This document shows, piece by piece, positions 8,076 through 24,229 of a DNA stretch of 32,318 nucleotides (positions within the stretch are counted from its first letter, which is position 1; each line of letters begins with the position of its first letter). The notes under the pieces were generated by a model. That model made no database searches. It was not told the DNA's origin and was given only the letters and a program-made list of their open reading frames with translations. Both the position numbers and the translations under genes were made by a program. The stretch comes from Saprospiraceae bacterium (lineage in GTDB: Bacteria > Bacteroidota > Bacteroidia > Chitinophagales > Saprospiraceae), in assembly GCA_022448945.1 (NCBI GenBank), contig JAKVCV010000019.1, positions 1 through 32,318 on the forward strand, given 5' to 3'.

Positions 8076-8651
8076 ATGATGTTTAAAAATAGTCTTTATT
8101 TATGTTTGATTGTTTGCTTTCCTTTATTTGCTTTGTGTCAAGAGCCATTAGATGTCACAACAAAAACCAACCGACAGACCTTATCAAAAGTTCTTGAAGG
8201 AGATTTTAACCGTTTTTTTAATTTAGAAGAAAAAGCCAGAATAGCTTTGTCACCTGAAGAAATGAATATTCACTATAAAACCGGAGGGTTTCAGGAATAT
8301 ATTGATATTTATTTGGTAATGAATAAAGATCAAAGACTTCTTAGTTCAAAATTAATTGTCAGCAGAGAATGGATGAAAGGAGCCAATCTTAAATTTGCTA
8401 TTGATATTATCAAAAGCTTTGTACTTGAATTTTCAATAGATAAAGAACATATCCAACCTTTGGCAGATAAATTATGGAATTTTGGAACAGATATGGAACC
8501 TGAGTTGACAGACGAAAATCTTATTGGTTGCTTTGATGTTTTTCAAGGAAAGACAATGTCATATACGTTCAACTACAAAGATCAGGGTTTTGTTTTTAAT
8601 AATAAAAAAGGAGAATCTGGAGTATATGTTTTTGTTGTAGAGGTTAATTAA
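8076..8651 (+). CDS. Secreted hypothetical protein
   Basis: A 191-residue protein with an N-terminal signal peptide (LYLCLIVCFPLFALCQ, likely cleaved near residues 20-22), so it should reach the periplasm or beyond. The mature part is mixed alpha/beta and mildly charged, ending in alternating strands (SYTFNYKDQGFVF, GVYVFVVEVN). I recognise no domain or catalytic motif. Two adjacent ATG codons (8076 and 8079) could start it; the second gives MFKNS, equally compatible with the signal peptide. It is monocistronic: 271 bp separate it from divergent thrS, and a strong terminator follows its stop within 30 bp. Called real because of the signal peptide, the length and the correctly placed terminator. 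Confidence 0.75.
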   Translation: MMFKNSLYLCLIVCFPLFALCQEPLDVTTKTNRQTLSKVLEGDFNRFFNLEEKARIALSPEEMNIHYKTGGFQEYIDIYLVMNKDQRLLSSKLIVSREWMKGANLKFAIDIIKSFVLEFSIDKEHIQPLADKLWNFGTDMEPELTDENLIGCFDVFQGKTMSYTFNYKDQGFVFNNKKGESGVYVFVVEVN

Positions 8652-18664: not shown

Positions 18665-18695
18665 TTAAATGTATAGTATGCATTAAAAAACAATC

Positions 18696-19080
18696 ACAAG
18701 CCTATAAGCCGAATCCTGTACTCTGGTGATTCCACCAAAGCCTCTATCATTTATCTAGGCTAAAAGTCACCTTTTAGCTCTATCTGCCTACCCTCCAGCT
18801 AAAGCGAGCAACCCTTCAGGTTCAATTGAACCTACGCTGGTATACATGGCATTTCAACTCAAAAGGTTTATCCCCTGTAGATGTCGCCAAATACAGTCGT
18901 GCGCTCTTACCACACGTTTTCACCCTTACTCCGCAACAAGTTTGGAGCGGTTGTTTTCTGTGACACTTTCTGTATTCTCTTATTATAGAGAACCCCACCA
19001 GTTAGGTGGTATGATGCTCTGCGTTGTTCGGACTTTCCTCATTCCTGGCATTTTACCAGGCCCGCGATAGAGCAGCTTGT
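18696..19080 (-). ncRNA. rnpB: RNase P RNA (bacterial class A)
   Basis: The catalytic RNA that removes 5' leaders from precursor tRNAs. Read on the minus strand, the 5' end ACAAGC (19080-19075) pairs with the 3' end GCTTGT (18701-18696) as helix P1. The conserved blocks follow in order: CCTGG-TAAAAT-GCCAGG as P3, GAGGAAAGTCCGAACA (CR-I), GGTAAGAGCGCAC, GGGTAGGCAGATAGAG near the 3' half, AGATAAATGATAGAGG (CR-IV) and ACAGGATTCGGCTTAT (CR-V). The length of about 385 nt is normal. Six T (as A at 18685-18690) follow P1 at the 3' end and serve as a terminator. A TACATTTA box at 19094-19087 lies 7 nt before the 5' end, in the right place for a Bacteroidota -7 element. The exact ends are taken from P1 and could be off by a few bases. 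Confidence 0.96.
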
Positions 19081-19383
19081 AATTGTTAAATGTAAAGTTA
19101 AATATAAATAGTGATTTCAGAATATGAATAGTAATTAAATAATATATTTATCATTATTTACAAACTCATTTTTTTAAAGTTTACAAAAAATGATTTTAAT
19201 GTAGCAGAATTATAAGCTTTAATATAGGTTAGAATCGTTCTAAATAAAAACGAGTGACAAATAAGCAATACTATAGGTTGCAAAATTGGTATTGAATAGA
19301 TATTTTGTGTCATCTTATACATAAAATATGCTAGATTTACATTCAGTAAGAAAAATATTTAAAACTAAAATTATCATTAAAAC
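19081..19383. promoter_or_regulatory. Divergent promoter region of rnpB (left) and sdhCAB (right)
   Basis: A 303-bp gap without genes. For rnpB, TACATTTA (minus strand, 19094-19087) ends 7 nt before the RNA start. For sdhCAB, TAGATTTA (19332-19339), with TTTG at 19304-19307, is the best candidate; the spacing of 24 bp is longer than the usual 19-21. Both differ from TAnnTTTG only at the last base. The rest is featureless AT-rich sequence. Confidence 0.4.
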
Positions 19384-22168: not shown

Positions 22169-22214
22169 AAATGTAAATTGTTTTATACATTTTCTTTTGA
22201 AAAAAACAGAGACT

Positions 22215-22994
22215 ATGGCTCACGAAAATATAAAAGTAAACTTATACGTTTGGAGACAGAATGGACCCAATGATCCGAATGCGGGCATTAAAGTCTATTC
22301 AGATCTTGAAATTAATACACATATGTCCTTTTTGGAGATGTTGGATGTATTGAATACACACATAATTGAAAATAAAGATAAATATCCAGAAGGGCCTGTT
22401 GCTTTTGAACATGATTGTAGAGAAGGCATTTGTGGTGCTTGTTCTTTGGTTATAAATGGACGTCCTCATGGTCCTATGCAAGGAACGACTACTTGTCAGT
22501 TGCATATGCGTCATTTCAATAATGGGGATAATATTTATATTGAACCTTTTAAAGCAAAGGCCTTTCCTATGATAAAAGATCTTGTTGTAGATAGAAGTTC
22601 CTTTGATAAAATTATCCAAGCTGGTGGATATATTTCTGTAAATACGGGTGGAACACCTGATGGCAATGCAGTTCCAGTTCCTCAGGATGTGTCTTCTGAA
22701 GCTATGGATGCTGCTGCATGTATTGGTTGTGGTGCTTGTGTAGCAGCTTGCCCTAATGCCTCTGCAATGTTGTTTACTTCCGCTAAAGTTTCACATTTGG
22801 GACTTTTACCTCAAGGTAAAACAGAAGCTGCAATTAGGGTTAAAAGAATGGTTTCCCAGATGGATAATGAAGGATTTGGTCTTTGTTCGAATGTTGGTGC
22901 TTGTGAGGCAGATTGTCCTAAGGAAATATCAATTAACAATATTGCCAGAATGAATAGAGCATATATTTCTTCTACATTTACAAATGATCATTAG
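22215..22994 (+). CDS. sdhB: Succinate dehydrogenase iron-sulfur subunit
   Basis: A 259-residue electron-transfer subunit. The [2Fe-2S] ligands are in CREGICGAC (C68, C73, C76) and TTTC (C94). The [4Fe-4S] and [3Fe-4S] clusters use [11 protein letters not shown] (C169, C172, C175, C179) and [12 protein letters not shown] (C224, C230, C234). I chose the ATG at 22215 ([13 protein letters not shown]) over an in-frame TTG at 22197, because the family starts here and the upstream codons read KKTET. It is separated from sdhA by 46 bp and is the last gene of the operon, which ends at the terminator at 23023-23057. Confidence 0.96.
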
Positions 22995-23057: not shown

Positions 23058-23251
23058 TGTCAAATTTCAACACTTTTAGATTTAATAATTGAATTTTTTT
23101 AAAAAAATAAAAAAAACTTTCAATATAAGTTCACACTTTAATATTTGAAACCATTAATAGAGTGTAAATCAAATGAAAGGAAAAAGTCCTTTACTTTTAT
23201 TTATAACTTACTATAGATAGATCTACTGAATATAACAGATGATCTCTGTAT
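23058..23251. other. Intergenic part between the sdh terminator and the tandem small-RNA units
   Basis: AT-rich, without genes. AAAGGA-AAAAG-TCCTTT at 23176-23192 could form a weak 6-bp hairpin followed by ACTTTTATTT; a third, diverged small transcript cannot be excluded, but the support is poor. Confidence 0.3.
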
Positions 23252-23356
23252 TAAAAGCAAATACTAGATTTGCGACCTTGAAAAGAAATAAAGAAGTGTG
23301 TTTTATAGATTAGATAGTATGTTTAATTGACCCGGCGGGGGCCGGGTCATTTTTTA
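23252..23356 (+). ncRNA. Candidate small RNA gene, unit 1 of a tandem pair
   Basis: The 75-nt block at 23252-23326 is repeated exactly at 23416-23490. It contains TAGATTTGC at 23265-23273, a perfect match to the Bacteroidota -7 element TAnnTTTG, and ends directly at an intrinsic terminator: TGACCCGGC (23328-23336) pairing with GCCGGGTCA (23341-23349) over GGGG, then a T run to 23355. A transcript starting about 7 nt after the box, near 23279, would be roughly 75 nt long, with an A/G-rich unstructured 5' part. No start codon gives a peptide of useful length, so a non-coding RNA is the best reading. No clear -33 box is seen. The family was not recognised. Confidence 0.6.
23328..23356 (+). terminator. 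G+C-rich intrinsic terminator of small-RNA unit 1
   Basis: A 9-bp perfect stem TGACCCGGC/GCCGGGTCA with a GGGG loop and a following T run. It is strikingly G+C-rich for this genome. Confidence 0.92.
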
Positions 23357-23415
23357 AAACTTTGAAAAAGACACAAAGTGTATTGACCTGCTTTTAAAAA
23401 AAGATGGAATTTACA

Positions 23416-23524
23416 TAAAAGCAAATACTAGATTTGCGACCTTGAAAAGAAATAAAGAAGTGTGTTTTATAGATTAGATAGTATGTTTAACCTAACATAG
23501 CGGCGGCTTTGTTAGGTTTTTTTT
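23416..23524 (+). ncRNA. Candidate small RNA gene, unit 2 of a tandem pair
   Basis: Second exact copy of the 75-nt block (23416-23490), 164 bp after the first, with the same TAGATTTGC box at 23429-23437. It is followed by a different terminator: AACCTAACA (23489-23497) pairs with TGTTAGGTT (23510-23518), enclosing AGC-GGCG-GCT, then a T run to 23524. The predicted transcript starts near 23443 and is about 80 nt. The two units thus share promoter core and 5' body but have unrelated 3' hairpins. It ends 16 bp from the 3' end of the convergent SDR gene. Confidence 0.6.
23489..23524 (+). terminator. Intrinsic terminator of small-RNA unit 2
   Basis: A 9-bp stem AACCTAACA/TGTTAGGTT with an inner 3-bp AGC/GCT stem above a T-T mismatch, then a run of T. 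The minus-strand reading has no T run, so it does not obviously serve the SDR gene. Confidence 0.9.
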
Positions 23525-23539
23525 GTACTTAACGGATGC

Positions 23540-24229
23540 TTAAATGTCTCCTAGCTGAGGGCGAAGGATGATTTCCTCAACTACTGTTTGATCACTTAGT
23601 TTATAAATGTCTAATAAAGATTTTGCAATATCTTCAGATTTCATAAAACGTTCTTGTGGGAGTTCAGTTCCTTCCCAGGAGGCTGTATATGTTGCTCCAG
23701 GAAGAATTGAAGTTACTCTTATTCCTTTCTCTTTTACTTCTTCTCTTAATACTTTTGAAAAGCCTAACATTGCATGTTTCGAAACTGCATAAGCCCCATA
23801 GGGCATAATACTGGCAATCGAACAAATGTTAAATACATGTCCTTTCGATCTTTTTATCATCATAGGTATGATTCCTTGAGTCATATAGTAAGTGCTGTAA
23901 AGGTTGAGGTCCATCATCATTTCAAAAGCATCTTCATTGTCTTCATTTGTTAGTTCACAGGGTATAAAGACACCAGCATTGTTTACTAAGATATCTACAG
24001 AATCCCATTCTTTTTGAATTTTTAATATAAATGTTTTGACTTCCGTTTTTTTTGACATATCAACAGCTAAGGCAAGTACTTTTATTTCATGTTTTTCAAG
24101 ACTGTCTTTAAGGGTATCAAGATCAGCCTGAGTTCGCGCACATACTGCTACATTAAAACCATTTTTTGCTAATAATTCTGCTATTGCTTTGCCAATACCT
24201 TTAGTTGCTCCCGTTATTATTGCATTCAT
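23540..24229 (-). CDS. Short-chain dehydrogenase/reductase (SDR family)
   Basis: A 229-residue classical SDR, using NAD(P)H to interconvert a carbonyl and an alcohol on an unknown substrate. Visible: the cofactor motif TGATKGIG (residues 6-13), CART after the second strand (which suggests NADP preference), NNAG at 83-86, the catalytic serine in NICSIAS, Tyr147 and Lys151 in YAVSK, and PGATYT after the active site. It resembles the subgroup annotated as 3-oxoacyl-ACP reductase-like or sepiapterin-type enzymes, but the substrate is not known. It lies 22 bp downstream of the TMTC-like gene on the same strand, so the two are probably one transcript. Confidence 0.93.
   Translation of the reverse strand: MNAIITGATKGIGKAIAELLAKNGFNVAVCARTQADLDTLKDSLEKHEIKVLALAVDMSKKTEVKTFILKIQKEWDSVDILVNNAGVFIPCELTNEDNEDAFEMMMDLNLYSTYYMTQGIIPMMIKRSKGHVFNICSIASIMPYGAYAVSKHAMLGFSKVLREEVKEKGIRVTSILPGATYTASWEGTELPQERFMKSEDIAKSLLDIYKLSDQTVVEEIILRPQLGDI

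Follow-up and report, generated by a model that had tools for sequence, protein, structure and literature searches.

The window analysed here, a stretch of 32,318 nucleotides from a genome of Aureispira, a genus of Saprospiraceae (class Saprospiria), probably carries two arrayed units that belong to an undescribed family of trans-pairing small RNAs restricted to Aureispira, which is built like the FopS family of Bacteroides and is not a member of it. Each unit would comprise a small upstream hairpin, a linker and a core of 28-29 nucleotides followed directly by an intrinsic terminator, and the core would most likely act as an antisense seed that pairs with mRNA leaders near the start codon, so that translation is blocked. 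The terminator would need only to fold, which would leave its sequence free to drift by paired changes or to be exchanged. The observations behind this reading are an invariant core in a constant position ahead of a hairpin, its locus, the change in copy number, the divergence of the hairpins and one exact leader complementarity in a relative; from them we infer transcription, pairing in vivo, translational block and gene conversion. If the reading is true, it adds a small RNA family with a conserved core and a free terminator outside Bacteroidales, and the locus illustrates the extent of terminator divergence behind a fixed seed.

The array lies between the gene of an iron-sulfur subunit and a convergent SDR gene (Table 1). 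The former is a non-conserved neighbour, with different sequence upstream in the relatives G003, G004 and G006, as judged by eye. The units are intergenic, end in a hairpin and a T run and are conserved in relatives, all of which are features of intrinsically terminated small RNAs; the twin-unit locus has no open reading frame of 80 amino acids. The Rfam comparison proposed in the original prediction yielded no known family that reaches its cut-off at this locus, the nearest being FopS. Elsewhere in the window, class A RNase P RNA occupies 18689-19083 on the minus strand (234.8 bits).

Table 1. Features of the twin-unit locus, in window coordinates
Feature	Position	Strand	Basis or remark
75-nt block, copy 1	23252..23326	+	exact repeat, letter check
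75-nt block, copy 2	23416..23490	+	exact repeat, letter check
Small inverted repeat GCAAAT-ACTAG-ATTTGC, copy 1	23257..23273	+	contains TAGATTTG at 23265-23272; from sequence
Inverted repeat, copy 2	23421..23437	+	TAGATTTG at 23429-23436; from sequence
Invariant core, copy 1, lacking one T that other species have	23296..23323	+	exact pattern and alignment
Invariant core, copy 2	23460..23487	+	exact pattern
Predicted intrinsic terminator T1	23328..23355 (stem 23328-23349, then T run)	+	terminator scan
Predicted intrinsic terminator T2	23491..23524 (stem 23491-23516, then T run)	+	fold only; outside terminator-scan criteria
GTTCACACTTT-N12-CATTAA after A-rich tract, candidate promoter/operator of the locus	23129..23157	+	conserved upstream; function inferred
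SDR oxidoreductase gene, convergent and syntenic with the array	23540..24229	-	adjoins the array in 7/7 core-carrying genomes
Succinate dehydrogenase/fumarate reductase iron-sulfur subunit gene, upstream neighbour	22197..22994	+	NF005746

The basic description given in the original prediction holds: the two 75-nt blocks are identical letter by letter, their flanks differ outside the 75 nucleotides, and each block runs into a terminator-like hairpin with a T run, the first located by a terminator scan (shuffle mean 0.2) and the second by folding. No exact direct repeat in the window is longer than this block; the longest repeat in 20 first-order Markov sequences of window length is 14-17 nt, and the longest in the stretches before and after the pair is 16 and 14 nt. 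When T1 and T2 are compared in stem register, 13 of 26 positions agree, with five pairs the same and four changed on both sides; arm-shuffled hairpins reach this agreement in 1701 of 20000 trials (8.5%), a level at which the two terminators may be unrelated, as the original prediction had it, or related. No third copy of the block was found in the source genome, either by similarity search at E 0.001 or by the exact core pattern. In the source genome, with its two copies, the block is thus no scattered repeat of the kind that the original prediction named as a refutation, although in G003 the core is present in five prophage-like elements.

The distribution of the core, GTGTGTTTT(T)ATAGATTAGATAGTA, which is 28 nt long in the window copies and 29 nt elsewhere, appears confined to one genus among the genomes searched. 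A search of 60 genomes (source included) with the 75-nt block matched seven, all Aureispira, and scanning genome_contigs for exact copies of the core yielded four contigs, again all Aureispira. The cultured strain CCB-QB1 has a single unit. Among nine genomes of the genus, the core pattern has 15 exact sites in seven and the reversed pattern none; there are two sites in the source genome, one each in G004, G005, G006 and G008, three in G007 and six in G003. Ten of these 15 sites represent a single locus beside the convergent SDR gene, where the array, in one, two or three copies, is at most 30 nt away from the SDR match in all seven carriers, and the other five lie in the G003 elements. The two remaining genomes, G001 and G002, have no core by the exact pattern: G002 possesses the SDR gene but lacks a core even when 8 edits are allowed, and also lacks TTCACAC on the plus strand of the locus, and in G001 the SDR gene itself is unmatched at E 1e-40. 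A model of core plus hairpin (R1), built from seven of the core sites that it matches, recovers core sites of all seven carriers at 46.7-96.2 bits; in 199 genomes of the family, with 25 candidates scored per genome, it gave no convincing copy outside Aureispira, and two weak matches there (33.8 and 31 bits) were taken as chance by eye. A 25-mer of the core had no match in 295 genomes of the class, a pattern that also misses the window's own copies because it contains five T.

In the alignment of 14 of the 15 sites (A1; the site L014, whose core is the same as that of L012, is omitted), all columns from GTGTG to GTA are invariant except for one T, and little is conserved outside them. The variable T is absent from both window copies and present at all 13 other sites. 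The adjoining SDR gene is just 68-80% identical in DNA between carriers, except that G004 and G008 are 99.9% alike in this gene and consequently count as one, so that neutral drift is a poor fit to the invariant core, which is most likely, within the favoured explanation, the part of the unit under selection. Its mean unpaired probability is 0.38 and 0.45 in the two window units, values at which single-strandedness is not clear-cut. The comparison with relatives that the original prediction had called for thus bears it out in part: the body is conserved while the terminators vary, and units resembling small RNAs, with a common body and differing 3' hairpins, are supported.

A hairpin follows every core, and the hairpin sequences diverge, often by paired changes, as between the first two units of G007 (by eye). 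In a stem drawn by hand on seven of the 14 alignment rows, two of which (G004 and G008) are nearly the same, 90.9% of the cells are paired and 7 of 11 pairs are changed on both sides, and not one of 500 shuffles equals the stem on either measure; the number of pair types in the stem is no better than in shuffles (274/500). RNAalifold found no pair in alignment A1, because the hairpins differ in length and therefore do not line up. T1 is closest to the terminator of G005 (21/26 positions) and T2 to that of G003 (19/26), followed by G004 (17) and G006 (16), and body and terminators therefore have different histories. The SDR gene tree groups the window with G005 (support 80) and then with G003 (support 68), its two further nodes having supports of 36 and 49. 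Taken with the likeness of the terminators, this tree suggests that T2 may be the older form at the SDR locus and T1 the form common to G005.

The identity of the twin cores needs no special event, because every carrier has an identical core. The 44 nt upstream of the core, in contrast, are the same in both twins and different between species, and together with the missing T they point to homogenisation. The flank of copy 1 scores against the G005 flank at a level reached by 16 of 500 shuffles and that of copy 2 at a level reached by none, whereas the score of the two twin flanks against each other is reached by 210 of 500; the homology of the twin flanks is accordingly indirect, since each resembles the flank of G005 and not that of its twin. 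The twins would fit an older duplication with conversion of the block as well as a duplication of the block in which one hairpin was exchanged. In the explanation favoured here the units would descend from a tandem duplication that predates their present identity, and the 75-nt block would have been homogenised by gene conversion that spared the outer flank and the hairpin. The original prediction had preferred selection or gene conversion, or an exchange of hairpins, to a simple recent duplication, and the cores, flanks and terminators of the relatives argue for selection plus homogenisation or hairpin exchange.

The two blocks do contain the box TAGATTTGC that was originally read as a shared promoter, but this role is not supported by the comparison with relatives: TAnnTTTG is absent within 200 nt upstream of all 11 other units counted (G008 and one G003 copy being left out), the box lies at -31 from the core, and it belongs to an inverted-repeat arm. 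The proposed 5' end and length of 75-80 nt are accordingly provisional. The octamer TAGATTTG fits TAnnTTTG, the -7 consensus of PMC7366714, a pattern that occurs across the window at a background of 0.91 per kb and strand. The octamer begins 31 nt upstream of the core and forms the right arm of the repeat GCAAAT-ACTAG-ATTTGC. Single folds with RNAfold place a local hairpin, mostly of other sequence, before the first core in all seven loci folded. No promoter was found at a fixed distance from the core. What recurs is TTCACACTTT with CATTAA upstream of the first core in all seven loci read, TTCACACTTT beginning 98-178 nt before TAGATTAGATAGTA, and the spaced pattern GTTCACACTTT...CATTAA, which has one occurrence in the source genome and is present once per locus, not per unit, is, where it follows the A-rich tract, a better promoter candidate than TAGATTTG.

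The search for host targets gave a weak signal. Across 0.8 Mb of the source genome, with 548 predicted starts, an excess of pairing was found at one of four thresholds: at -16 kcal/mol there are 21 real cases against a shuffle mean of 11.05, with 0 of 60 shuffles giving as many and an internal control of 12 against 12.03, and at -14, -18 and -20 kcal/mol the real count is reached by 16, 13 and 15 of 60 shuffles. Genome-wide, complements of the core are not in excess when compared with the reversed pattern. The distances to gene starts were checked at 30 loci, part of the places with core complements, and the element gene of G003 also turned up among these. In G005 a small gene, lipoprotein-like by eye, has a two-mismatch core complement directly before its ATG (L113:1501-1519), with the start 19 nt after the first base of the complement pattern; the same distance occurs in G001, a genome without the core, and in G002 the distance is 117 nt. 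A three-mismatch core complement, TACTATCTAGTTTATAAAC, stands at G003:C1:6058468, 6060085 and 6061837, with spacings of about 1.6 and 1.75 kb.

The one exact complementarity is found in G003, where the core lies in five elements on the strand antisense to a gene leader, with a hairpin behind the core; the gene is the same in all five and encodes about 510 amino acids. The predicted mRNA of this gene contains the exact complement of the 29-nt core about 16-45 nt before its ATG, the duplex of core and leader has an energy of -42.3 kcal/mol, and 0 of 1000 shuffled cores do as well. This complementarity with the start region makes silencing of an mRNA by pairing possible, and makes the pairing directly testable. 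The five copies are mostly 93-98% alike and therefore constitute one independent case. On the opposite strand of the elements a hairpin and 4-6 T come after the core, so that the element may produce its own antisense RNA. The designation prophage-like derives from region L070, one of the five and the one annotated, which encodes endolysin-like, DNA methyltransferase and LPD1 proteins. The element gene has no Pfam match above the cut-off and no NCBIfam match, it has no match in the source genome, in phage records or, by six peptide patterns, in viral_contigs, and viral_contigs contains no copy of a 19-mer of the core. Homologous genes in G004, G008 and G002, and a distant one in G003 itself, have no exact core complement, and in nine other element-gene leaders the pairing with the core is equalled by 47-833 of 1000 shuffled cores. 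Separately, ACGGCGAC...ATATGCCGA was seen by eye in 11 of 13 element-gene leaders (L085:1171-1500, L071, L072, L073, L081, L082, L084 and L086-L089), before a hairpin and the start codon, and a T-arm-like GTTCGA stretch precedes ACGGCGAC in most of them. An Rfam search of nine element-gene leader loci gave no believable match; U7 matches in element loci pass the U7 cut-off, and they were taken as chance because U7 is a eukaryotic RNA.

The elements raise the question of which partner the core serves. It is possible, if rather unlikely, that the core is at root a regulator of prophage-like elements, as an antisense RNA of the element taken over by the host or as a host RNA that the elements use or are silenced by. 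The antisense arrangement with its hairpin in five elements and the gene content of L070 are consistent with this, as is the occurrence of FopS, too, in a Bacteroides phage. These elements amount to a single family, however, the exact complement is missing from the related genes, neither the core nor the gene was recovered from the viral collections, and in six of the seven carriers the core is limited to the chromosomal locus. A more speculative proposal, to which we give little credence, is that the array provides control at the RNA level, perhaps immunity, against such elements, in which case the core would shut off translation of the element gene and copy number and terminators would change under the contest. 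Exact conservation and presence in elements would equally fit a conserved DNA site, for attachment or protein binding, that acts without any RNA, but we regard this as improbable: the G003 core lies inside an element homology that extends on both sides and away from its end (L070 6567-15302 against L066, with the core at 8482), and wherever model R1 matches a site, the hairpin is on one and the same side of the core. The idea of a short peptide gene with a GTG start, for which G004 offers, by eye, the open frame GTG TGT TTT TAT AGA TTA GAT AGT ATG TTT TAA, is hardly tenable given that the missing T breaks the frame in both window copies, and the accompanying idea of a neutral repeat fares just as badly beside the divergent SDR gene.

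The alternative of a diverged but true homologue of FopS and GibS, in which Aureispira would have kept an ancestral Bacteroidota seed RNA and would use it on mRNAs of outer-membrane transporters, much as FopS represses SusC-type mRNAs at the start region, has an outside chance of being correct. FopS (RF04319) is the best Rfam match of the window locus, at 29.0 and 20.4 bits, and in relatives its best score is 32.5 bits (G005); all of these are below the gathering score of 56, two of the three G007 copies score 19.5 and 18.1 bits, the G004 copy is unmatched at E 10, and a limited first look with the FopS model over the source genome gave two other weak places, at 22.5 bits each, and missed the window. 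As to the FopS seed sequence R1/R1', when the start of the core, GTGTGTTTTT-ATAG-ATTAGAT, is aligned with GTGTTTTTCATAGTATTAGAT, the scores with six forms of FopS are reached by 0, 1, 2, 5, 42 and 53 of 3000 dinucleotide shuffles. In the reciprocal direction the genus model reaches 24.1 bits on a Prevotella copy of FopS and 17.8, 11.7, 11.3, 8.5 and 3.9 bits on five other FopS sites, against 17.3 bits elsewhere in these loci. All six FopS loci read have TAnnTTTG just before GTG (by eye), and the Aureispira units lack this sigma-ABfr box at GTG, the window's box being at -31 only and the 11 other units having none. The source genome has no RRM_1 (PF00076) match at E 0.001, the control Bacteroides ihuae being positive, and the family-wide search described above yielded no convincing copy beyond the genus. 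Since score, promoter place, copy number and RRM partner all depart from FopS, the Aureispira family is set outside it.

The explanation favoured here, a separate small RNA family, nonetheless has FopS as its closest parallel. Titles in the literature on Aureispira and on small RNA families gave no description of the core family, and those on Aureispira and small RNA together gave one paper, on fatty acid synthase, and nothing on small RNAs. FopS-like copies with a TAnnTTTG box were encountered in Parabacteroides and Prevotella records labelled as plasmids (L121, L122 and L123), outside Bacteroidaceae, the carriers named in the FopS paper (PMC11697453), and Bacteroides phage BX-TP2 has an unannotated FopS-like copy (L125:301-367) 290 nt from a DNA methyltransferase gene. 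GibS (RF04182, Bacteroides) shares the R1 seed with FopS and has a single-stranded 5' region and a terminator, according to PMC7366714, but its score for G007 is 17.0 bits against a cut-off of 115, and the window is not matched at E 5. The sibling small RNAs of Neisseria meningitidis (PMC5362039) are similar in being siblings. The differences from FopS lie in copy number (two in the source and 1-6 in other carriers, against 12-15), in the RRM partner (RbpB in FopS), of which none was found in the source genome, in the host class Saprospiria and in insertions and deletions. The likenesses are that both are of a multicopy short-RNA type, the Aureispira RNA being predicted; that the conserved 5' part GTGT..TTTTT.AT.G..ATTAGAT is similar in the two; that a terminator of variable sequence stands directly behind the conserved stretch, much as FopS is described with a single-stranded 5' stretch before its terminator (PMC11697453, section 8); and that copies occur in phage for FopS and in prophage-like elements for the Aureispira core, which is a parallel and not a proof. 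FopS is thus the nearest known family, and the Aureispira units, while not filed as FopS, plausibly work as FopS does.
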